DNA from: Actinomycetes bacterium
GTDB lineage: Bacteria > Actinomycetota > Acidimicrobiia > Acidimicrobiales > Ilumatobacteraceae
Length of the DNA stretch: 43,539 nt
NCBI GenBank assembly: GCA_025359865.1
Contig: JANYDH010000175.1
Span: 1 to 43,539, forward strand
Direction of reading: 5' to 3'
The notes below the pieces were generated by a model. It made no database searches. It saw nothing but the letters and a program-made list of their open reading frames with translations, and had not been told where the DNA came from. This document shows positions 30,098 through 40,629 of this stretch, in pieces; positions within the stretch are counted from its first letter, which is position 1; each line of letters starts with the position of its first letter. The position numbers were made by a program, and so were the translations under genes.

Positions 30098-31513
30098 ATG
30101 GCTGGCAACGACAACGGCAACGACAACGGCAACGACAGCGGGTACAGAGCCAGGAGCCTGTGGCTCGGTGGGATCGACGCTCCGCTGACCCCGCGGGCCG
30201 CGCTCGGCGGCGACGTGGCATGCGATGTCGTGATCATCGGCGCCGGGTTCACCGGGTTGTGGACCGCCTATTACTTGAAGCGACTCCAGCCCGACCTTCG
30301 CATCATCGTTGTCGAACGCGAGATCGCCGGATTCGGTCCGTCAGGTCGAAACGGTGGCTGGGCGTCAGCGTTCATTGCCGGTAGTCCCGGAGTGTACGAA
30401 CGCCGCAGTGGCCGCGATGCCGTACTGCGCGCCGAGCGTGAGACCTTCGATGCGGTGACCGAGATCGGTCGGGTCGTTGCTGAGGAACAGATCGAATGTG
30501 GGTTTGAGCACTCCGGCTCTCTCTCGCTCGCGTTCACCGGTCCGCAGCGCGACCGACTCATTGCCGGGGTCCGGTCGAAGCACGCGCGCGGCCTCTCGGA
30601 CATCGACATCAGGGTGCTCGGGAGCGAGGAGAGCGCTGGCTACGTCCGTGCCCGCGAACCACTCGCAGCATCCTTCACTCCCCATTGTGCCCGTATCGAC
30701 CCTGGCCGACTCGTACGTGGCCTGGCCGACGCATGCGAACGCATCGGTGTCGTCATACATGAACTCACTCCGGCGACCTGGATCCTGCCGCACAAAGTTC
30801 GGTGCCCCAACGGGGTGATCAGTGCCCCAATGGTCGTCCGCGCGACTGAGGCATACACCACGCAGATCAAAGGAGAAGCCCGCCGGTTCCTCCCCCTGTA
30901 TTCGCTGATGATCGCCACGGAACCGCTCGACGCTTCGGCGCTCGACGAATTGGGATGGGCGAGTGGGCTGACCGTGTCGGATCAACACCACCTGTTCTTC
31001 TATGCGCAACTCACTACCGACGGGCGCATTGCGATCGGTGGCCGCGGCGCCCCCTACCGCCTCGGTGTACCGATCAGCGACCTGTACGAACGCAACGACG
31101 CCGTTCGGGAGCGGCTGACCGACTCGATCCGGAGGCATTTCCCTGCTGCGGCAGACACCGAGATTGCTCAGTCCTGGGGTGGGCCACTCGGCGTGCCGCG
31201 TGACTGGTGCATGAGCGTCGTCTGCGATCATACTGCTGGGTTCGCGTGGGCGGGTGGTTACTCGGGCCACGGTGTTGTCGCCGCGAACATCGCCGGGCGC
31301 ACACTCGCCGATCTCATCACCCGACGCGACACCGATCTCGTGCATCTCCCGTGGGTCGGCCACGTCCCACGTCGGTGGGAGCCCGAGCCCCTTCGCTACC
31401 TGGCGTCAAAGTCGATCGTGGCTGTACTCGGCAGCGCCGACAACGCTGAAGATCGAACAGGACGAACGGCTCGGCGGACCACGCTCGTGCGACCGTTCGT
31501 CATGAGCCGTTGA
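30098..31513 (+). CDS. FAD-dependent amine/amino-acid oxidoreductase (DAO family)
   Basis: A 471-residue DAO-fold flavoenzyme. The dinucleotide motif DVVIIGAGFTGLWTAYYLKR follows a short leader made of GNDN repeats. FGPSGRNGGWASAFIAG is the second FAD block typical of gamma-glutamylputrescine oxidase/PuuB-like enzymes. The C-terminal GFAWAGGYSGHGVVAANIAGRTLADLI closes the FAD site. It probably oxidises a secondary amine or amino acid; the substrate is unknown. It is transcribed in the same direction as selO, 57 bp after it. Confidence 0.88.
   Translation: MAGNDNGNDNGNDSGYRARSLWLGGIDAPLTPRAALGGDVACDVVIIGAGFTGLWTAYYLKRLQPDLRIIVVEREIAGFGPSGRNGGWASAFIAGSPGVYERRSGRDAVLRAERETFDAVTEIGRVVAEEQIECGFEHSGSLSLAFTGPQRDRLIAGVRSKHARGLSDIDIRVLGSEESAGYVRAREPLAASFTPHCARIDPGRLVRGLADACERIGVVIHELTPATWILPHKVRCPNGVISAPMVVRATEAYTTQIKGEARRFLPLYSLMIATEPLDASALDELGWASGLTVSDQHHLFFYAQLTTDGRIAIGGRGAPYRLGVPISDLYERNDAVRERLTDSIRRHFPAAADTEIAQSWGGPLGVPRDWCMSVVCDHTAGFAWAGGYSGHGVVAANIAGRTLADLITRRDTDLVHLPWVGHVPRRWEPEPLRYLASKSIVAVLGSADNAEDRTGRTARRTTLVRPFVMSR
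30104..30139. repeat. 12-bp tandem repeat, 3 copies
   Basis: ggcaacgacaac twice and ggcaacgacagc once, immediately after the ATG and Ala codons of the FAD oxidoreductase. It encodes GNDN GNDN GNDS before the conserved fold. Confidence 0.9.
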
Positions 31514-31693
31514 CCAACTCAGGGACGTGGCGTTGCCCCTTGTTGGCAGAGCGGAAAGAATGCGTTCCCATCCGGCACCTGGACGAATCTCGCAGAGTCG
31601 TTCAAGTTCGACGTAGACGGCGGTGTGCTCGAAGTCTGGCTGGAGTAACGCTCCCGCAAGGTCCGACGGCATGTGATGGCTGGCCATCTGGCC

Positions 31694-31718
31694 AATGTAC
31701 GGATATTGTCCGTACATT
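31694..31718. promoter_or_regulatory. Palindromic operator-like site upstream of molybdoenzyme operon
   Basis: Perfect 10-bp inverted repeat AATGTACGGA-tattg-TCCGTACATT in the 290-bp spacer (31514-31803) before the FeS/NrfD gene. Size, AT-bearing arms and the 5-bp spacer suit a dimeric regulator of TetR or MarR type better than a terminator. No regulator gene lies nearby. Confidence 0.6.
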
Positions 31719-31815
31719 CGGCCCTTCGAGCAAAGCGGGGTCGCGGAAGGATTTCGTCGGTGATCGTCATGCAGTTCCAGAGTGGTTGTTCGTCACGCGC
31801 ATCGTGTCCGACCCG

Positions 31816-33342
31816 ATGACGAGATACGCGTTCCTGATCGACCAGGACACCTGCATCGGGTGTCATGCCTGCACGGTGGCGTGCAAGGCCGAGCACGATG
31901 TACCGCTCGGCGTGAACCGCACATGGGTGAAGTACATCGAACGCGGCGAGTTCCCCGACACCCGTCGGTTCTATTCCGTGAACCGTTGCAACCACTGCGA
32001 CGATGCACCCTGCGTGTCGATCTGTCCGACCACCGCCTTGTTCCGCAGGGATGACGGAATCGTCGATTTCAACGATTCGTCGTGCATCGGCTGCAAGTCA
32101 TGTATGAACGCATGCCCGTACGACGCGCTCTACGTCAACCCACAGACTCAAACAGTCCACAAGTGCAACTTCTGCACCCATCGGGTCGAAGTCGGATTGG
32201 AGCCGAGTTGCGTGGTCGTGTGTCCCACCCAGTCGATCTTCGCGGGAGACATCGAGGATCCGACCTCGAAGATATCGGTGATGTTGTCGCGTCACGAGAC
32301 CTCGGTGAAGGCGCCCGAACAGAACACGAAGCCACACGTGTTCTACAAAGGTGTCGATCAGGCAGCGATCGACCCACTGCGAACCAAGATTGCCGAAGAC
32401 GGCATGATCTGGGCCGAGACCACGGAACATCATCCGACGATCCGAGTCGACACGCCAGGTCGGGGCAAGCAGATCGTTGCTCGCACCGCCTACACCACTG
32501 CGCATCCAATGGTCTGGAAGGGCAAGGTCTCGGCCTACCTCGCGACGAAGGCGATCAGCGCGGGCGCGATCCTCGCCGGGGCCGTCGCCGTGCTCGCCGG
32601 GCATGCCGACAATCGAGCGTTCGTGGGGTTGGCGCTACCGATCGTTGCGTTGCTGTTCGCCGCGGCGACGGGTGCGCTACTCATCGCCGACTTGAAGCAA
32701 CCGAAGCGGTTCCACTACATCTTCACCCGCCCGCAGTGGGGTTCGTGGCTCGTGCGTGGGGCATTCATCCTCCTCGGCCATGGCCTGTTCGCTTCGCTCT
32801 GGTTGCTCGGTGGGCTGCTCGACTCGCCCGGGCTGATCAAGGCGGTGGCGATACCCGCCGCACTGTTCGCCGCAGGGACTGCCGGTTACACCGCCTTCCT
32901 GTTCGGCCAATGCGAAGGCCGTGACTTCTGGCAGACACCACTGTTGTTGCCGGTGCTGCTCGCTCAGGCGGGGGCCGCCGGCGCCGGGCTGGGACTGGTC
33001 ATGGCTCGGCTGTTCGACCTGCCGGAGCCGCTGATGACGACGATGATATGGGTGCTGCTCGGCAGCGTTCTAGCGCTCGCGTTCTTGATCTGGACCGAAC
33101 TATCCAGTACCGGCACGGTCCACGTCGAGATGGCCCAACGGGCCATGACCCACGGCGACTACAAGGGTCGATTCTGGGTTGGCGTGGTTGTCGGCGTCGC
33201 CGGTGCCGGTGCCCTCGCGATCCTCGCGCTGGTCACCGGGTCGTGGATTTTGGCGCTGGTTGCCGGTGTTGCCGCAATCGTCGGCGTTGCCCTGTACGAA
33301 GACGCCTTTGTTCGGGCCGGCCAGTCCGTGCCCCTGTCGTAG
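31816..33342 (+). CDS. Fused ferredoxin-type FeS subunit and NrfD-like membrane anchor
   Basis: A 508-residue fusion of subunits B and C of a complex iron-sulfur molybdoenzyme. The N-terminal ~140 residues hold 16 cysteines in four sets (13/16/19/23, 58/61/66/70, 90/93/96/100, 117/120/132/136), enough for four [4Fe-4S] clusters as in DmsB/PsrB. From about residue 225 there are eight hydrophobic helices of NrfD/DmsC type, with LLIADLKQPKRFHYIFTRPQWGSW. This part passes electrons to or from quinone. There is no Tat signal, so the FeS part faces the cytoplasm. ATG 31816 or GTG 31804 are both possible; the earlier open frame is non-coding. Confidence 0.9.
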   Translation: MTRYAFLIDQDTCIGCHACTVACKAEHDVPLGVNRTWVKYIERGEFPDTRRFYSVNRCNHCDDAPCVSICPTTALFRRDDGIVDFNDSSCIGCKSCMNACPYDALYVNPQTQTVHKCNFCTHRVEVGLEPSCVVVCPTQSIFAGDIEDPTSKISVMLSRHETSVKAPEQNTKPHVFYKGVDQAAIDPLRTKIAEDGMIWAETTEHHPTIRVDTPGRGKQIVARTAYTTAHPMVWKGKVSAYLATKAISAGAILAGAVAVLAGHADNRAFVGLALPIVALLFAAATGALLIADLKQPKRFHYIFTRPQWGSWLVRGAFILLGHGLFASLWLLGGLLDSPGLIKAVAIPAALFAAGTAGYTAFLFGQCEGRDFWQTPLLLPVLLAQAGAAGAGLGLVMARLFDLPEPLMTTMIWVLLGSVLALAFLIWTELSSTGTVHVEMAQRAMTHGDYKGRFWVGVVVGVAGAGALAILALVTGSWILALVAGVAAIVGVALYEDAFVRAGQSVPLS

Positions 33343-33360
33343 AAGGAAAGGCTTGGTCAC

Positions 33361-36306
33361 ATGTCGTTGCTCGATGATCTCCACCGTTGCGCCCAGGCGA
33401 ACCTCACCCGGATCATGCCCGGCTCGCAACTCACGAACTACGCACCGGTCGAACGGTGGGACGACTGGGTCGAACTCGACGCAAAAGCGTGGGCACACGG
33501 AGAGAAGAAAGAACGCCGGTACCGGCTGATTCCGACTACCTGCTTCAACTGCGAGGCGTGCTGCGGGTTGCTCGCGTATATGGACAAGTCCACCGGACAG
33601 ATTGCGAAGCTGGAGGGCAACCCAGCCCATCCGGCGAGCCGCGGACGCAACTGCGCCAAGGGCCCAGCCACGATCACACAGGTGTACGACCCCGAACGGA
33701 TCCTGTATCCGTTGAAGCGGTCAGGTCGGCGAGGCGAAGGAAAGTGGCAACGAATCACGTGGGAGCAGGCGCTCGACGAGATCGGCAGCCGCATCCGAAC
33801 CGCCTTCATGGAGGACCGCCACGACGAGGTCTTCTACCATGTCGGGCGACCCGGCGATGACAGCTACATCGAGCGCGTGCTGCACGCATGGGGGATCGAT
33901 GGCCACGACTCGCACACCAACATCTGCTCATCGGGTGCACGCGTGGGCTACGCCACGTGGATGGGTTTCGACCGGCCCTCCGGTGATCACGCCAACGCCA
34001 AGGTGATCTTTCTCATCTCCTCCCATCTCGAGGCGGGCCACTACTTCAACCCGCACGCCCAGCGGATCATCGAAGGCAAGATGCGTGGCGCGAAGATCAT
34101 CTGCGTCGACCCTCGGTTGTCGAACACCGCTTCAATGAGTGACCACTGGCTGGCACCGTGGCCCGGTACCGAAGCCGCGATGCTGCTTGCGATCGCCCGA
34201 CTGCTGCTCCTCAAGGGCACGTGGGATCGCGAGTTCGTACGGCGCTGGGTGAACTGGGAAACGGTGCTGCGCGAGATGCGGCCGGACCTCGACTGCACGT
34301 TCGAGAACTTCGGTCCAGCGGTCATCGATCTCTACGAGGAGTTCACGCCAGAGTACGCCGCGCAGCAATGTGGTATCACCGCAGAGAAGATTCGCGAGAT
34401 CGCCGATGTCATCGCGACCGCGGTGCCGGGCAAACTCAGCTCTCACAGTTGGCGTGCTGCTGCAGCTGGCAACGAGGGGGGCTGGCAAGTTGCCCGCTGT
34501 CTGTGGTTCCTCAACGTGCTGACCGGTTCGGTCGGCACCGAAGGCGGGGCCAGCCCGAACGGATGGAACAAGTTCATTCCAGTCCCGCCGAAGGTGGTGC
34601 ACCCGCAGGGCCGGTGGAACGACCTCACCTGGCCCGTCGAATATCCGCTTGCGCATCATGAAGCATCGATCCTGCTACCGCACTTCCTAAAGGAGGGCCG
34701 CGGCAAGGTCGATACCTACTTCAGCAGGGTGTACAACCCGATTTGGACCAACCCCGACGGGTTCTCCTGGCTCGAGGCGCTCACCGACGAGAACATGGTC
34801 GGCTGCCACATCGCGCTCACCCCGACCTGGTCGGAAAGTGCATGGTTCGCCGACTACGTGCTGCCGATGGGCAACGGTGCGGAGCGTCACGACGTCGCTA
34901 GCTACGAAACCCACAGTGGGCGTTGGATCGGGTTCCGCCAGCCGGTGTTCCGAGTCAACGCCGAACGCGAAGGCCGAACCGTCAACCGAACGTGGGAGAC
35001 GAACCCGGGCGAGGTCTGGGAGGAGAACGAGTTCTGGATCGATCTGTCGTGGAAGATCGACCCGGACAACTCGCTCGGCATCCGCCAGCATTTCGAGTCG
35101 ACGAAGCACCCGGGTACACCGCTTGGGATCAACGAGTACTACGACGACATGTTCCGGAACTCGATTCCTGGCCTGCCGGAAGCGGCCGCGCGCGAAGGAC
35201 TCGACCCGCTCGCCTACATGCGCAAGTACGGCGCATTCGAGATCCCAGGCGGCCAATACGCGGTCCACGAACGGATCGTGTCCGCTGAGGAGATCATCAA
35301 GACGAAGGCGGTCAAGAACGCTGACGGCGTGTACCAGGTTCCCGGTACAGCGGGTCTGCACGATAACTTGGACGACATCACCGGGCACATGCCGTTCATC
35401 GGTGATGGCTCGATCGGTGTCGAGATCGACGGCAAGGTTCACTTTGGCTTCCCGACCCCATCGCGCAAGCTCGAGATGTACTCTCCGATGCTGCGCGACT
35501 GGGGATGGCCCGAGTACGCGATGCCGGGATTCATCAAAAGCCATGTCCATTGGGAAGACCTCGACATGGAACATGGTGAACGAATCCTGCTTCCCACGTT
35601 CCGGCTCCCGACATTGATCCATACCCGGTCGGGACAGGCGAAATGGTTGAACGAGATCAGCCACTCGCACCCGATGTGGATTCACCCATCCGACGCAGAG
35701 CGGCTTGAGATCGGGATGAAGGGACTCGTCCGGATCACCACCCAGATCGGATACTTCGTCATCCGCGCGTGGCGAACCGAAGGCATCCGGCCTGGCGTCG
35801 TCGGGGTCTCGCATCACATGGGCCGCTGGCGACTCGATGATGGCGAAGGGACCCCGCGCTATTCGTCGGCGCTGGCCGCGCTCTGCGGACCAGCCGATGC
35901 GTATGGGCAGAACACCACCCCGACCGGTATGCCTGGCCAGTGGAAGATGAGCCAAGTCAAAGGCGTGACCCCGTTCGAATCGTCGGATCCCGACTCGGGG
36001 CGGGTGTGGTGGTCAGATGCCGGGGTACATCAGAACCTCACCTTTCCGGTGCAGCCGGACCCCATCTCGGGGATGCATTGCTGGCTCCAGAAGGTCACCG
36101 TTGCTCCGGCTCATGCCGATGACCGTTACGGCGACATTGCCGTCGACACCGGCAAATCCACCGAGGTCTACCGGGAATGGCTCGCCAAGACCCGACCCGG
36201 CCCCGGACCGGGCGGGCTCAGACGACCGCTCTGGTTCGCCCGTCCGGTCAAGCCGACAGCGGCTGCCTACGCGACTCCGCCGAGGCAATGGAAGGCACGG
36301 CATTGA
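33361..36306 (+). CDS. Molybdopterin-dependent oxidoreductase, catalytic subunit (DMSO reductase superfamily)
   Basis: A 981-residue molybdo-bis-MGD enzyme. The N-terminal [4Fe-4S] site uses Cys61, Cys64, Cys68 and Cys98 (TTCFNCEACCGLLAYM ... RGRNCAKG). The molybdenum ligand is probably Cys189 in NICSSGARVGYATW, as in Psr/Phs/Nap/Arr-type enzymes, not Ser or Asp. The C-terminal MGD-binding domain ends the chain. There is no Tat signal, so it works in the cytoplasm with the FeS/NrfD fusion encoded 18 bp upstream. AAGGAAAGG precedes the ATG. Size and topology recall cytoplasmic sulfite dehydrogenase SoeA, but the substrate is undetermined. Confidence 0.9.
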   Translation: MSLLDDLHRCAQANLTRIMPGSQLTNYAPVERWDDWVELDAKAWAHGEKKERRYRLIPTTCFNCEACCGLLAYMDKSTGQIAKLEGNPAHPASRGRNCAKGPATITQVYDPERILYPLKRSGRRGEGKWQRITWEQALDEIGSRIRTAFMEDRHDEVFYHVGRPGDDSYIERVLHAWGIDGHDSHTNICSSGARVGYATWMGFDRPSGDHANAKVIFLISSHLEAGHYFNPHAQRIIEGKMRGAKIICVDPRLSNTASMSDHWLAPWPGTEAAMLLAIARLLLLKGTWDREFVRRWVNWETVLREMRPDLDCTFENFGPAVIDLYEEFTPEYAAQQCGITAEKIREIADVIATAVPGKLSSHSWRAAAAGNEGGWQVARCLWFLNVLTGSVGTEGGASPNGWNKFIPVPPKVVHPQGRWNDLTWPVEYPLAHHEASILLPHFLKEGRGKVDTYFSRVYNPIWTNPDGFSWLEALTDENMVGCHIALTPTWSESAWFADYVLPMGNGAERHDVASYETHSGRWIGFRQPVFRVNAEREGRTVNRTWETNPGEVWEENEFWIDLSWKIDPDNSLGIRQHFESTKHPGTPLGINEYYDDMFRNSIPGLPEAAAREGLDPLAYMRKYGAFEIPGGQYAVHERIVSAEEIIKTKAVKNADGVYQVPGTAGLHDNLDDITGHMPFIGDGSIGVEIDGKVHFGFPTPSRKLEMYSPMLRDWGWPEYAMPGFIKSHVHWEDLDMEHGERILLPTFRLPTLIHTRSGQAKWLNEISHSHPMWIHPSDAERLEIGMKGLVRITTQIGYFVIRAWRTEGIRPGVVGVSHHMGRWRLDDGEGTPRYSSALAALCGPADAYGQNTTPTGMPGQWKMSQVKGVTPFESSDPDSGRVWWSDAGVHQNLTFPVQPDPISGMHCWLQKVTVAPAHADDRYGDIAVDTGKSTEVYREWLAKTRPGPGPGGLRRPLWFARPVKPTAAAYATPPRQWKARH

Positions 36307-37430
36307 CCGCCGACCTCACGCTGATCGCCGAACGCCGAGCCGCGCTCTCAGCACTGCTCGGGCTGCTGATCCTCGGAGAACCAGGCCCGGGTCTCGCCGA
36401 ATTGATCGGCGCCATCCCTGCGCTTGCCGCACTTGGGTCTGGCGACCCTGCGATCGCCACCGAGTACGAGCGGGTGTTTCTTCGTGGCGTTCCGATGTAC
36501 GAGTCGGTCTTTCGCAGCGACGATGGTCAGCATGGCGGCGAAACGATTAGCGCACTCGTCGAACGGTACGACCGACTCGGGTTCACAGAGTTCCTCGAGC
36601 AGCGATGGCGTATCGCCGGCCCGGATCATCTCGGACTGCAGCTGCGCTGCCTTGCTCATCTCTGCAGCCAAGAGGCCGCGGCCTGGCGAGACGGCACCCC
36701 CGACAAAGCGATGGAAGCGGTCGAAGCCGAACGAACGTTTCTTGCGCACCACCTCGCCGGATGGGCACCTGTCGCGATCCAGTGTGCACTGAGACATGTC
36801 GGCGAAGGTGCCTACGTGCCGGTGCTGCGGGCGATCGCCGATCACCTCAGTGAAGAATTCGACCGGCTTCGCCCAGCCCCCGACCTGGGCAGCCAGGTCG
36901 AGTGCGAGCCGTTGCCGACGAACCTCGGACCTGCCCGGCTCTCACGACTGATCCTCGCTCCTGCCACCTGCGGAACATGGATCGACTCGGCGGTCATCGG
37001 CCTGGCAGCGAGGTCGATCGGTGCTCCATGGCGGCCGAGCGACACCCGCTCATCGCTGCGCCATGTCATCGCCGATGCCGAGACCAGCGGTGATCTTCAC
37101 ATCGTGCTCGAACCCATCGCTGAACGCCTTGATGTAGCGATCACCGCCCACCAGCACGCCGCCGAATGCTCGCCGGGTAACGCTGCGAATGCCCGTCGCT
37201 GGGCGCTGACCGCAGCAACAATGCGGGAACGGCTCGCGAGCATTGCCGAGACCGGCATGTATGGACGTGACCGACTCGTCGACTCCGAGACGTTCACCGT
37301 CAGCGGTCCCGACGCTGACCAACTCGCCGACGCGATCGACGAGCTCGTCACCGACCTGCGCCGCCAAGGCTTGTGCGTGCAACGGCACACCGACCAAAGC
37401 AGCGGTCTGGGCACCGGTGGTGGGCTATAG
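36288..37430 (+). CDS. TorD/DmsD-like molybdoenzyme chaperone with C-terminal extension
   Basis: A 380-residue protein. The first ~200 residues are TorD-like helices with IATEYERVFLRGVPMYESVF, the E-Y-x-x-x-F and Y-E-S-V/Y marks of the family, and a long helical body. The remaining ~180 residues (ARLSRLILAPATCGTWIDSA ... ADAIDELVTDLRRQGL) form an extension that usual TorD (about 200 residues) lacks. It likely guards the apo catalytic subunit during cofactor loading. It overlaps the catalytic gene by 19 bp from ATG 36288; TTG 36303 is an alternative. It is the last gene of the operon. Confidence 0.82.
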   Translation: MEGTALTADLTLIAERRAALSALLGLLILGEPGPGLAELIGAIPALAALGSGDPAIATEYERVFLRGVPMYESVFRSDDGQHGGETISALVERYDRLGFTEFLEQRWRIAGPDHLGLQLRCLAHLCSQEAAAWRDGTPDKAMEAVEAERTFLAHHLAGWAPVAIQCALRHVGEGAYVPVLRAIADHLSEEFDRLRPAPDLGSQVECEPLPTNLGPARLSRLILAPATCGTWIDSAVIGLAARSIGAPWRPSDTRSSLRHVIADAETSGDLHIVLEPIAERLDVAITAHQHAAECSPGNAANARRWALTAATMRERLASIAETGMYGRDRLVDSETFTVSGPDADQLADAIDELVTDLRRQGLCVQRHTDQSSGLGTGGGL

Positions 37431-37928: not shown

Positions 37929-38942
37929 ATGAACGCACCCGCACCCGGCACGCAGGACTGGCTCGATCTCGTCGTCGAGGATGTGATCGAACCAGATCTG
38001 CCGATCGTCGATCCGCATCACCACCTCTGGCCTGTTGGTGGTGGGCTGCCGTACGGGCTTGCCGACCTACATGCGGATGTGGCTGCTGGCCACCGCGTCG
38101 AGCAGACCATCTTCGTCGAGTGCCATGCGGCCTACCGCACCACCGGCCCGGCCGAACTGGCTTGCGTCGGTGAGACAGAGTTCGTCGCGAGTAACGCTCA
38201 GGGTGACCCGGCGCCGTTGATCGCGGGGATCGTGGCGCATGCCGATCTGCGCCTGGCCAACCTCGATGAGGTGCTCGACGCTCACGAGGTCGCCGGCAAT
38301 GGACTGCTCCGCGGGATCCGTGACGCGCTTGCTCGCGCCACGCACCCCGAGGTGATGATGATCGCAGGCCGAGCACCGGTCGATCTGTATCTCGACCCCG
38401 CGTTTCGGGCGGGCGTCGGCCGACTCGGCGAGCGTGGTCTGACGTACGACACGTGGCACTACCACCACCAAAACCGTGAACTGCTCGAACTCGCGCGTGC
38501 CGTGCCGGGTACCACGATGGTGCTCGACCACTTCGGTACGCCGGTCGGTGTGGGCCCATACGCGTCGAAACGCGACGAGATCTTCGAGCAGTGGAAGATC
38601 GATATTGCGGAGCTCGCCCGGTGCGAGAACGTCGTGGCCAAGCTCGGCGGGTTGGCGATGCCCGATAACGGCTTCGGGTGGCACACTGCGGCGCGCCCGG
38701 CCACCTCGGATGAGCTCATCGCCGCACAACGCCGCTACTACATGCACACCATCGAGTGCTTCGGGCCACAGCGGTGCATGTTCGAATCGAACTTCCCGGT
38801 CGACCGATTCTCGCTGTCCTACCGCACAGTATGGAACGCGTTCAAGAAGATGACAGCGGAGTTCTCCGCGGACGAACGTACAGCGATGCTCAGCGGTACC
38901 GCACGACGTGTGTACCGCTTGGCAGAGCCTGGCGCTTCGTGA
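37929..38942 (+). CDS. Amidohydrolase (PF04909-type TIM-barrel metal hydrolase)
   Basis: A 337-residue amidohydrolase_2 member. The metal site H-x-H is in PIVDPHHHLWPVGG. TMVLDHFGTPVG holds the next His, and MFESNFPVDRFSL the Asp. Family members are lactonases or non-oxidative decarboxylases such as those acting on 2-pyrone-4,6-dicarboxylate or resorcylate. The start ATG 37929 is preferred over 37875, which adds an unrelated leader. It is 17 bp upstream of two CMD/AhpD-like genes on the same strand, suggesting one operon. Confidence 0.88.
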   Translation: MNAPAPGTQDWLDLVVEDVIEPDLPIVDPHHHLWPVGGGLPYGLADLHADVAAGHRVEQTIFVECHAAYRTTGPAELACVGETEFVASNAQGDPAPLIAGIVAHADLRLANLDEVLDAHEVAGNGLLRGIRDALARATHPEVMMIAGRAPVDLYLDPAFRAGVGRLGERGLTYDTWHYHHQNRELLELARAVPGTTMVLDHFGTPVGVGPYASKRDEIFEQWKIDIAELARCENVVAKLGGLAMPDNGFGWHTAARPATSDELIAAQRRYYMHTIECFGPQRCMFESNFPVDRFSLSYRTVWNAFKKMTAEFSADERTAMLSGTARRVYRLAEPGAS

Positions 38943-38959
38943 CGACGTACCATCATCAA

Positions 38960-39427
38960 ATGGAGTCGCTCGGGATGCTGTCGACGGTCGCGGTGATCGA
39001 CCGCGTGTTGGGTTCCGGAGCGACGGGTCATGCCGACGTGCTCGAACAGTTGAGCACGGCGAACAAGGCGGCATGGTCGGCGACGTCCCCGCGCCTGCTG
39101 GAGTTGTGCCGGGTGCGGATCGCGACGATGCTCAGCTGCGATGCGGAGACGCTCTCGCGTAGTCCAGGCACTGGGGTCGATGAGGAACTGCTCGATGCCA
39201 TCGCGACCTGGCCGGGCGAACCCCGTTTGACCGACGTCGACCGCGCATGTCTCGCGTTCACCGAGATGTTCGTTCTCGACGTTGCATCGATGGACGATGA
39301 GACCGTGGCTGCCGTGCGCGAGCACCTCGGTGATGCGGGGCTTGCCAATTTCGTGCGGGCGCTGCTCATCGTTGAGCAACGGATCCGGTTGCGACTGGTG
39401 TGGGATCGACTGCTGGGAGGCGACTGA
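38960..39427 (+). CDS. Carboxymuconolactone decarboxylase/AhpD-like protein, first of a tandem pair
   Basis: A 155-residue helical protein with LLELCRVRIATMLSCDAETLSRS and LTDVDRACLAFTEMFVLDVASMDDETVAAV, which fit the CMD/AhpD fold. It lacks a C-x-x-C pair; only isolated cysteines occur in that region, so it is probably not a thiol peroxidase by itself. It ends one base before the start of the Sec-candidate gene and likely partners with it. The start is ATG 38960; GTG 38939 would overlap the amidohydrolase. Confidence 0.72.
   Translation: MESLGMLSTVAVIDRVLGSGATGHADVLEQLSTANKAAWSATSPRLLELCRVRIATMLSCDAETLSRSPGTGVDEELLDAIATWPGEPRLTDVDRACLAFTEMFVLDVASMDDETVAAVREHLGDAGLANFVRALLIVEQRIRLRLVWDRLLGGD
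39415..39420 (+). promoter_or_regulatory. Shine-Dalgarno deciding the start of the Sec-candidate gene
   Basis: GGGAGG ends 8 bp before GTG 39429. It shows that translation is meant to enter upstream of the internal TGA, which supports recoding over a start after the TGA; TTG 39600 has no ribosome site. Confidence 0.75.
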
Positions 39428-39428
39428 C

Positions 39429-39926
39429 GTGGAACGTGCTCGACGAGTGGCCGCCGGCACGGCGACCGACCCAGCGTTGCGACATTCGACGGTCGGGTTC
39501 GCGGCAGCCGCCGTCCGGTTGGCAACGGTTGATCCGGTGACCACCGAAATCGTGAGGATGCGGTGCGCCAAGCACCATGACTGCGGTACTTGACTGTCGT
39601 TGCGCTTGGCGGTCGCCAGGGATGCAGGACTCGATGAGGCCACGATCACCGACGTGCTCGAGGCGCGCGCCGATTCGTTGCCGGCCCGCCACCGGGCAGC
39701 GCTGTCGCTTGCCGATGCGTTGATGACCCAGCCTTCGTCACTCACGAACGCCGACGTGGTGGAGCTACGCAGGCACTTCACCGACGAACAGCTTGTCGAG
39801 TTGACGCTCGACGTTATGAAGTGGAACGAGCAGAAGATAGCAGTGGCATTGGGCACCGATGTCTGGATAAGCCCAGGCCAGCTGAGTGACCTCGTGTTCG
39901 ACGCTGAAGGCAACTTTGTTCGCTGA
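39429..39926 (+). CDS. CMD/AhpD-like selenoprotein candidate (C-G-T-U)
   Basis: Read through the in-frame TGA at 39591-39593, this is a 165-residue CMD-domain protein. Before the TGA: VDPVTTEIVRMRCAKHHDCGT. After it: LSLRLAVARDAGLDEATIT, then LADALM and HFTDEQLVELTLDVMKWNEQKIAVALG, the family C-terminus. Homologues read H-D-C-x-x-C-x-S-L-R, so the TGA (codon 55) replaces the second redox cysteine, giving C52-G-T-U55. Frame is kept on both sides with no other lesion. GGGAGG precedes GTG 39429, and a SECIS-like hairpin follows. It is probably a thiol/selenol oxidoreductase or peroxidase. The alternative is a nonsense pseudogene. Confidence 0.8.
39591..39630 (+). promoter_or_regulatory. UGA codon with bacterial SECIS-like hairpin
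   Basis: After the UGA at 39591-39593, CUUGGC (39605-39610) pairs with GCCAGG (39615-39620) around a GGUC loop. Lower helices are UGC/GCA (39601-39603 with 39624-39626) and GUC/GAC (39596-39598 with 39628-39630). The loop GGU starts 17 nt after UGA. In E. coli fdhF the SelB-contacted GGU lies 18 nt after UGA. Pairing was worked out by hand. Confidence 0.7.
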
Positions 39927-40022: not shown

Positions 40023-40244
40023 ATGCGTACCACCATTGATCTCGATCAGGATCTCCACGAGGCGGCGGTCGCAGAGGCTCGGCTTCGCCGCATGTCGCTG
40101 AGTCGACTACTCAATGATGCGCTGCGCGCAGCGCTCCACCCGGTTCCTGCCGTCGAGATTCACTCGACAACGGGCCTTGGCGTCGTACACCTGGGGCGAC
40201 CAATCACCGACTCGGAACTTGCCGAAGTCCTCGACGATGACTGA
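40023..40244 (+). CDS. vapB: VapB-type antitoxin
   Basis: A 73-residue ribbon-helix-helix-like protein: MRTTIDLDQDLHEAAVAEARLRRMSLSRLLNDALRAAL is the DNA-binding module, and the acidic tail LAEVLDDD would wrap the toxin. It overlaps the PIN gene by 8 bp. ATG 40023 is preceded by GAGGTG; GTG 40020 is an alternative. It likely represses its own operon together with the toxin. Confidence 0.88.
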   Translation: MRTTIDLDQDLHEAAVAEARLRRMSLSRLLNDALRAALHPVPAVEIHSTTGLGVVHLGRPITDSELAEVLDDD

Positions 40245-40629
40245 ACCGATGCTCATCGATGCGAACGTGCTGATCGCGCTGTCGTTCGCCGATCACTTTC
40301 ACCATGAGCGGGCGGTCGCCTGGTTGGGGAGTAGGCGGAGATTTGCGACGACGCCGTGCGTGCAGGGCTCGCTGATCCGGTTCGCGGTTCGGGTGGCTAG
40401 CCCGACGCATGCCGGTGATCTGATCGACCTGCTCACTGCTCACGGGCGTCACGTCTTTTGGCCAGACGACGTTGGGTACACTCGTTCCATGCTCCGGGGA
40501 CTGACTGGGCACGGTCAGGTCACCGACGCATATCTCGCTGAGATCGCAGTGGCTCATGCCACCAAGCTGGCCACCTTCGACCAAGGCCTCGCAACACTCC
40601 GGCCTGATGTTGTCGAATTGGTGGCGTAA
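40237..40629 (+). CDS. vapC: VapC-type PIN-domain toxin
   Basis: A 130-residue PIN ribonuclease: MLIDANVLIALSFADHFHHERAV carries the first acidic residue (Asp8). The later acids are in GQVTDAYLAEIAVAH and LATFDQGLATL, the usual PIN quartet spacing. It probably cleaves tRNA or rRNA when freed from its antitoxin. It is translated from inside the antitoxin's 3' end. Confidence 0.9.
   Translation: MTEPMLIDANVLIALSFADHFHHERAVAWLGSRRRFATTPCVQGSLIRFAVRVASPTHAGDLIDLLTAHGRHVFWPDDVGYTRSMLRGLTGHGQVTDAYLAEIAVAHATKLATFDQGLATLRPDVVELVA

Follow-up and report, generated by a model that had tools for sequence, protein, structure and literature searches.

Strong support for a selenocysteine-encoding CMD/AhpD-like gene with a putative partner subunit in an Ilumatobacteraceae bacterium

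The gene at 39429..39926 on the forward strand of the analysed stretch (43,539 nucleotides in total, hereafter the window), here called CMD-B, is strongly supported by comparison of its sequence with those of relatives as a functional selenoprotein gene, in which an in-frame UGA would be read as selenocysteine (Sec). The initial annotation had proposed a real selenoprotein at this place, and the proposal is now backed by the Sec machinery of the genome, by a codon that is either UGA or Cys in relatives, by a covarying hairpin and by purifying selection. Together with the gene directly upstream, CMD-A, CMD-B would form a two-subunit selenol/thiol oxidoreductase of the AhpD fold, with CMD-A in a structural or regulatory role. 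We infer the incorporation of selenium, the pairing and the kind of substrate, and give this reading a probability of about 0.85.

Reading frame and conservation of the UGA codon

CMD-B starts with GTG, encodes 165 residues with Sec at codon 55 and ends with a TGA, which is included in the coordinates above (39429-39923 without stop). The internal UGA is located at 39591-39593. A single frame runs through it, as described in the initial annotation, and yields the motif HDC-GT-U-LSLR. The active-site codons C52-G-T-U55 are found at 39582..39593 (forward strand), where the UGA takes the position of the second Cys of the CxxC motif; the column holds UGA in relatives and Cys in distant homologues. 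A Shine-Dalgarno-like GGGAGG (39415..39420, forward strand) is placed 8 nt upstream of the GTG, within the 3' end of CMD-A, and had correctly been assigned to this start; four close relatives (L021-L024) have ATG instead of GTG at the same start codon. Splitting of the gene by standard annotation had also been foreseen, and stop-based ORF calling indeed yields two ORFs, 39282-39593 and the TTG-started 39600-39926. The Pfam CMD domain (PF02627) matches residues 15-95 with 22.9 bits, compared to a gathering score of 23.

Protein matches to CMD-B were present in 83 of the 150 genomes of the family. From the 31 CMD loci that were fetched, two were cut off by contig ends and excluded. Among the 29 that were aligned, 25 carry an internal UGA that always falls in the same column, where the remaining four have Cys. 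A scan of contigs from named genomes gave 47 loci (38 with UGA, nine with Cys), many of them from the same genomes as the first set and some of them near-copies. Neither TAA nor TAG was found at codon 55 in the 29 aligned or the 47 named-genome loci. The expected pattern, with UGA in the close relatives and a Cys codon in those further away, was therefore observed. A search of 395 genomes of the class gave matches in 58 at E 1e-12. UGA is present in all eight rows that score above 230 bits and an internal stop is absent from the following eight (98-131 bits), with both kinds found further down. In the phylum, 13 of 396 genomes matched at 1e-25, with UGA only in the two that belong to the source family. 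On a tree of 67 rows, the UGA/Cys labels require four changes, the placement of L044 and L141 on long branches being unsure. Cys counterparts such as L152 (TDCAYC) sit among the UGA rows, pointing to several Cys/Sec switches, and further UGA-containing CMD subclades exist in the class, namely L156, L157, L158 (NDCNIU) and L084 (NECHVU). Plasmid records gave distant matches only (best 40.6%). The named genomes that harbour the clade are labelled Ilumatobacteraceae, Acidimicrobiales, Acidimicrobiaceae and the like, and the names of the isolates suggest an aquatic origin. The labels Bifidobacterium and Neomarinimicrobiota on some members are probably naming or binning errors.

Both halves of CMD-B are, judged from the substitution pattern, under purifying selection. 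In ten pairs, dN/dS ranged from 0 to 0.19 before the UGA and from 0.01 to 0.23 after it, some of these values being rough because dS is high in those pairs. Signs of decay in the downstream half, which would have spoken against a selenoprotein, were not seen: its frame is open and its dN/dS is low. Third-position G+C is 0.70 before the UGA and 0.77 after it, the latter being the same as in both upstream genes; the short part before the UGA has an unusual second-position G+C of 0.61. That the gene is a decaying pseudogene, or a sequencing error, with a Cys codon turned into a stop would fit its splitting by standard ORF calling, but this reading is in effect refuted because UGA is conserved across relatives (25/29 and 38/47, with Cys in all others), and the low dN/dS on both sides and the covariation of the hairpin also contradict it, so that we give it virtually no weight.

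Selenocysteine machinery and the SECIS hairpin

The source genome (4.99 Mb in 219 contigs, 96.6% complete) contains all components that the initial annotation had suggested looking for: tRNA-Sec with the anticodon UCA, selB (281.6 bits, and 298.7 in a second search), selA directly beside selB (399.8 bits, cut-off 267.9) and selD (309.8 bits). Two tRNA-Sec matches at contig ends (C89 and C200) represent a single gene, because these contigs overlap at their ends with 141 identical bases. In the family, tRNA-Sec was found in 103 of 150 genomes. It is present in 25 of the 26 genomes with a UGA orthologue compared to 78 of the 124 others (one-sided Fisher test, p 0.0003), where an orthologue was defined by at least 40% identity over the match, which is partial in G104, G071 and G044. 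The one exception is G059 (80% complete), which has a UGA orthologue and gave no tRNA-Sec match. No tRNA-Sec was found at E 1e-9 in G023, G024, G040, G101, G102 and G142, which have weaker matches through one TGA. G023 is 97% complete, yet its UGA-containing CMD gene (L077) is followed by a good SECIS.

The candidate SECIS hairpin is located at 39605..39620 on the forward strand, with a 6-bp stem (39605-39610/39615-39620) and the loop GGUC (39611-39614). The distance from the UGA is 17 nt to the loop and 11 nt to the stem. A hairpin with this loop had been reported to begin right after the UGA; hairpin and loop are there, but 11 nt intervene. No Rfam family matched the hairpin, and no Rfam match was obtained within the CMD-B gene. 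When the sequence was folded alone, z was -1.69 over 29 nt (11/200 shuffles folded as well) and -0.32 over 49 nt (61/200 shuffles). Folding of one sequence is weak evidence, and the case for the hairpin was therefore built on its relatives.

In 20 distinct sequences and eight pairs (seven in the stem, one in the loop), 93.1% of the cells are paired and covariation reached 0.407 compared to 0.201 in shuffles (0/500 as high), with slid controls at 0.148 or below. With 27 sequences, from which the two copies of the source genome were left out, it was 0.490 compared to 0.231; in this set the number of pairs with double changes did not exceed that in shuffles (113/500), whereas the other four measures did. 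In 38 distinct sequences, on average 6.37 of the seven stem pairs are formed, compared to 4.48 (sd 0.13) in 2000 synonymous-codon shuffles. The loop conforms to RGUY in all 38 distinct UGA sequences, 28 with AGUU, ten with GGUC and none with a mixed form. The first and last letters of the loop fall on the third positions of an Ala and a Val codon. Since they change jointly, the sequences suggest that the loop ends pair with each other and leave GU exposed. RGUY was not found in any of the 13 Cys homologues, in which the stems have one to six pairs. The stem itself is not exclusive to UGA loci, as the Cys homologue L046 forms 6/7 pairs. Thus, the GGU-type loop that had been noticed in one sequence is part of a hairpin that covaries across the clade.

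A hairpin model, R1, was trained on the 27 sequences, which exclude the two copies of the source genome and include sequences of the same genus. In the 5 Mb source genome, where 150 of 3959 first-look candidates were scored, R1 found two UGA codons with 48.7 and 37.8 bits, those of CMD-B and of L002, and the next site had 15.1 bits. L002 (G000:C70:14098-14613, outside the window) is the second UGA-containing CMD gene of the genome, with the motif CGYU and a SECIS of its own. In sister clades the UGA codon was found in six loci (33.5-37.1 bits), and no site above 14.1 bits was found in 18 Cys loci. R1 is specific to this type of SECIS, since it gave no site in L206, an NF041238 selenoprotein, and the UGA of L084, which belongs to another clade, scored only 12.9 bits. 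L206 (G000:C91:19324-20298) matches NF041238 with 273.8 bits (cut-off 175). Its one in-frame UGA is part of CFFU, and downstream of this UGA there is an AGUU stretch with GCUC and GGAGC on its two sides.

The window contains a look-alike. The SelO gene (PF02696, 28136-30040) ends in ...FCGT-TGA-TS followed by an AGUU stretch and was considered as a second Sec gene. In 59 rows, however, 48 read through TGA alone, eight through TAA or TAG alone, two through TGA and TAA, and one through none. All 30 loci that were read have TFCGT followed by a stop and no conserved sequence beyond it. Because relatives use TGA, TAA and TAG and nothing after the codon is conserved, the UGA of SelO is an ordinary stop; R1 found no site in the SelO loci L176 and L178. 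This terminal TGA is a useful negative control for CxxU motifs.

Could the UGA of CMD-B likewise be an ordinary stop with a separate gene downstream, or be read through with insertion of Trp or another residue? The TTG-started ORF and the SelO gene ending in CGT-UGA in the same window would be compatible with this. The two halves, however, form one CMD domain in the Pfam match and in the model, Cys occupies the codon in distant relatives, and SelO, as a control, shows the opposite pattern. Insertion of a different residue is at odds with the hairpin and the machinery, which fit Sec, and with the use of UGA as a terminator in this genome, at the end of CMD-B included. We consider both variants very improbable and retain Sec at codon 55.

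The putative partner CMD-A and its gene neighbourhood

CMD-A (38939..39427, forward strand) encodes a CMD-related protein of 162 aa without CxxC. It ends 1 nt before the start of CMD-B, while its GTG start shares bases with the stop codon of the preceding gene, which encodes an Amidohydro_2 protein (PF04909; 37875..38942, forward strand) and is perhaps part of the same transcript. CMD-A is found directly upstream of CMD-B or fused to it at 38/38 UGA loci and at 9/9 Cys loci (five detected by tblastn and the other four by profile, three of these being fusions). A 4-base overlap between the genes is seen at 14 of 24 loci. At the active-site place CxxC is missing in 24/24 CMD-A rows; the CxxC of L103 belongs to an N-terminal stretch probably located before the true start. 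CMD-A is homologous to CMD-B (hhalign, 95.7%) and its profile matches AhpD-like PDB chains, while Pfam names it as CMD in 5/24 only (E up to 1). Both domains are encoded in one frame with the UGA in L100, a Sec fusion, and are fused in the Cys proteins L126, L127, L129 and L131. At sister UGA loci, the CMD-A match is clear for L077, L081, L153 and L159 (44.8-78.3 bits), lower for L156-L158 (27.5-31.6 bits) and only 10-14 bits for L074-L076. No CMD-A match is listed for L084 beside its own CMD-B, and L002 is preceded by a weakly CMD-A-like ORF (6.8 bits).

Across the 38 UGA loci and the window, no constant neighbour other than CMD-A was found, as neighbours vary by lineage, and no conserved redox partner gene was found near the pair. 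An amidohydrolase occurs within up to 4 kb upstream at only one of the 38 UGA loci (L085), where it is not adjacent. Downstream of CMD-B in the window, a small ORF and, behind it, a gene for a PIN-domain protein (PF01850; together 40023-40629) resemble a VapBC-type toxin-antitoxin pair. The region 31510-37430 holds a molybdopterin oxidoreductase cluster with a 610-aa single chain of 4Fe-4S and NrfD parts, a 981-aa catalytic subunit and a Nitrate_red_del protein.

Structure, proposed mechanism and relation to known systems

The CMD-B model (pLDDT 81.2) clearly matches AhpD-like structures in fold, and its best PDB matches are PA0269/AhpD-like chains (E 6.5e-6). In AhpD, Glu118, Cys130, His132, Cys133 and His137 form a proton relay (PMC3141380). 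When these positions were assigned in CMD-B by their spacing around CxxU, E40, C52 and U55 were found to be invariant in the clade, and so were T54 at the place of His132 and R59 at that of His137. As Glu and the CxxU residues are kept and both His are replaced, the sequence makes a redox role of CMD-B likely, and the exact AhpD reaction not. The model of the fused L100 protein (pLDDT 73.5, pTM 0.74) gave Foldseek E-values above 0.001. In VIA-align comparisons, its C-terminal domain matched P. aeruginosa AhpD (7xw1; Z 17.1), and a match to Sestrin2 (5dj4; rmsd 3.9, Z 16.8) extended across both domains, covering 236 residues. The likeness to Sestrin2 is only suggestive, since predominantly helical models can score about 14 even when no clear match exists. 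In a joint alignment of fused and split proteins, CMD-A fell on the C-terminal domain; this alignment was not taken as input for folding.

We propose that SelB with Sec-tRNA reads UGA 55, aided by the hairpin at 39605-39620. The product would be an all-helical protein of the AhpD/CMD fold in which C52-x-x-U55 replaces the CxxC of AhpD. Genetic linkage, natural fusions and the model suggest that it pairs with CMD-A, as do the halves of the fused relatives and of Sestrin2. U55 would then attack a peroxide, a disulfide or another oxidised substrate, resolution by C52 would give a selenenylsulfide, and the protein may be recycled by a thiol system of the cell. The role of CMD-A would be to complete the dimer and, perhaps, to bind a substrate, a reductant or a ligand. 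A more specific version, in which the pair is a split, Se-dependent bacterial counterpart of Sestrin, i.e. an obligate heterodimer whose Sec subunit is redox active and whose CxxC-less subunit senses a ligand or stress and controls it, appears improbable to us, though less so than an ordinary stop.

Somewhat better placed, and still unlikely, is the possibility that CMD-B is active alone as a homo-oligomer and that CMD-A is a separate protein merely encoded in the same operon. AhpD proteins are treated as oligomers in the crystal work cited here (PMC3141380), and the CMD-A match of the paralogue L002 is only weak. Against it stand the linkage or fusion of CMD-A at every UGA and Cys locus while other neighbours change, the fusion that itself carries Sec (L100) and the uniform loss of the active-site CxxC from CMD-A. 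Of all alternatives, the one we would doubt least concerns the substrate, which might be a special one rather than a peroxide or disulfide, for instance in a dehalogenation as by Bmp8 or in a degradation step with the amidohydrolase. The debrominase Bmp8 is among the PDB relatives, the amidohydrolase gene overlaps CMD-A in the window and a relay His of AhpD is an invariant Arg here. However, the amidohydrolase is not kept beside the pair at the UGA loci, and Bmp8 ranks below AhpD-like structures. A two-subunit selenol/thiol oxidoreductase thus remains our preferred reading.

CMD and AhpD-like selenoproteins with CxxU have been in print since 2005 (PMC1088965, PMC2398784, PMC9312934, PMC13188914), among them four CMD sequences from the Sargasso Sea and 70 AhpD-like 2 sequences from the GOS survey (PMC1088965, PMC2398784). 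As described there, these have a Pfam02627-type domain and Sec at the second Cys of CxxC, like CMD-B; compared by these descriptions, the sets may or may not include the clade studied here, and a paired CMD-A gene is not mentioned in the passages on these proteins. NF041238 (AhpD_rel_CFYUT), listed as Sargasso Sea hypothetical protein 1 (PMC13188914), is also an AhpD-related selenoprotein with CxxU. In contrast to CMD-B it is a single-gene model of 357 positions, and CMD-B is not matched at E up to 1. The best NCBIfam match of CMD-B is NF053654, a YciW-related (seleno)protein, with 33.4 bits against a cut-off of 310; it is matched by 24/24 clade members at E 0.01. No NCBIfam AhpD/CMD (seleno)protein model reaches its cut-off with the clade. 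The earlier impression of an undescribed protein may hold for the clade and does not hold for CxxU proteins of this kind. Searches of the open literature on selenoproteins (Acidimicrobiia/Ilumatobacter, Actinobacteria, NCBIfam) and on AhpD and Sestrin gave no paper on the clade or the pair among the matches listed. What appears to be new is the clade with its CMD-A/CMD-B architecture.

CMD-B shares the fold, the Glu (E40) and the CxxC/CxxU positions with AhpD of Mycobacterium tuberculosis and with PA0269, and differs from them by Sec for the second Cys, Arg at His137, Thr at His132 and a separate CxxC-less subunit. Bmp8 (6ohi) is a relative in sequence and fold of lower rank, and its entry titles name neither Sec nor a partner. 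Two AhpD-like domains, one of them without an active site, are also found in Sestrins and in the fused AhpD of Corynebacterium ureicelerivorans, a prokaryotic protein reported to have a Cys-less N-terminal domain (PMC11429811). CMD-A and CMD-B, unlike these, are usually encoded by two genes and have Sec. The fused relatives have the degenerate domain first and the active one second, as in C. ureicelerivorans, whereas in Sestrin the antioxidant domain comes first. Sestrin features described in the same paper are the electronegative DDYDY hinge, a leucine site and GATOR2 binding (PMC11429811).

These results add to the CMD/AhpD family a clade with fixed Sec in Ilumatobacteraceae-like actinobacteria, which is unnamed by NCBIfam and split by stop-based gene calling. 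Its SECIS is unusually clear, with a fixed RGUY and joint A-U/G-C changes at the loop ends, and the clade is therefore a good natural test set for the rules of bacterial SECIS elements. CMD-A, which lacks the active site, provides a concrete system for the origin of active/inactive pairs of AhpD-like domains, represented in eukaryotes by Sestrin.
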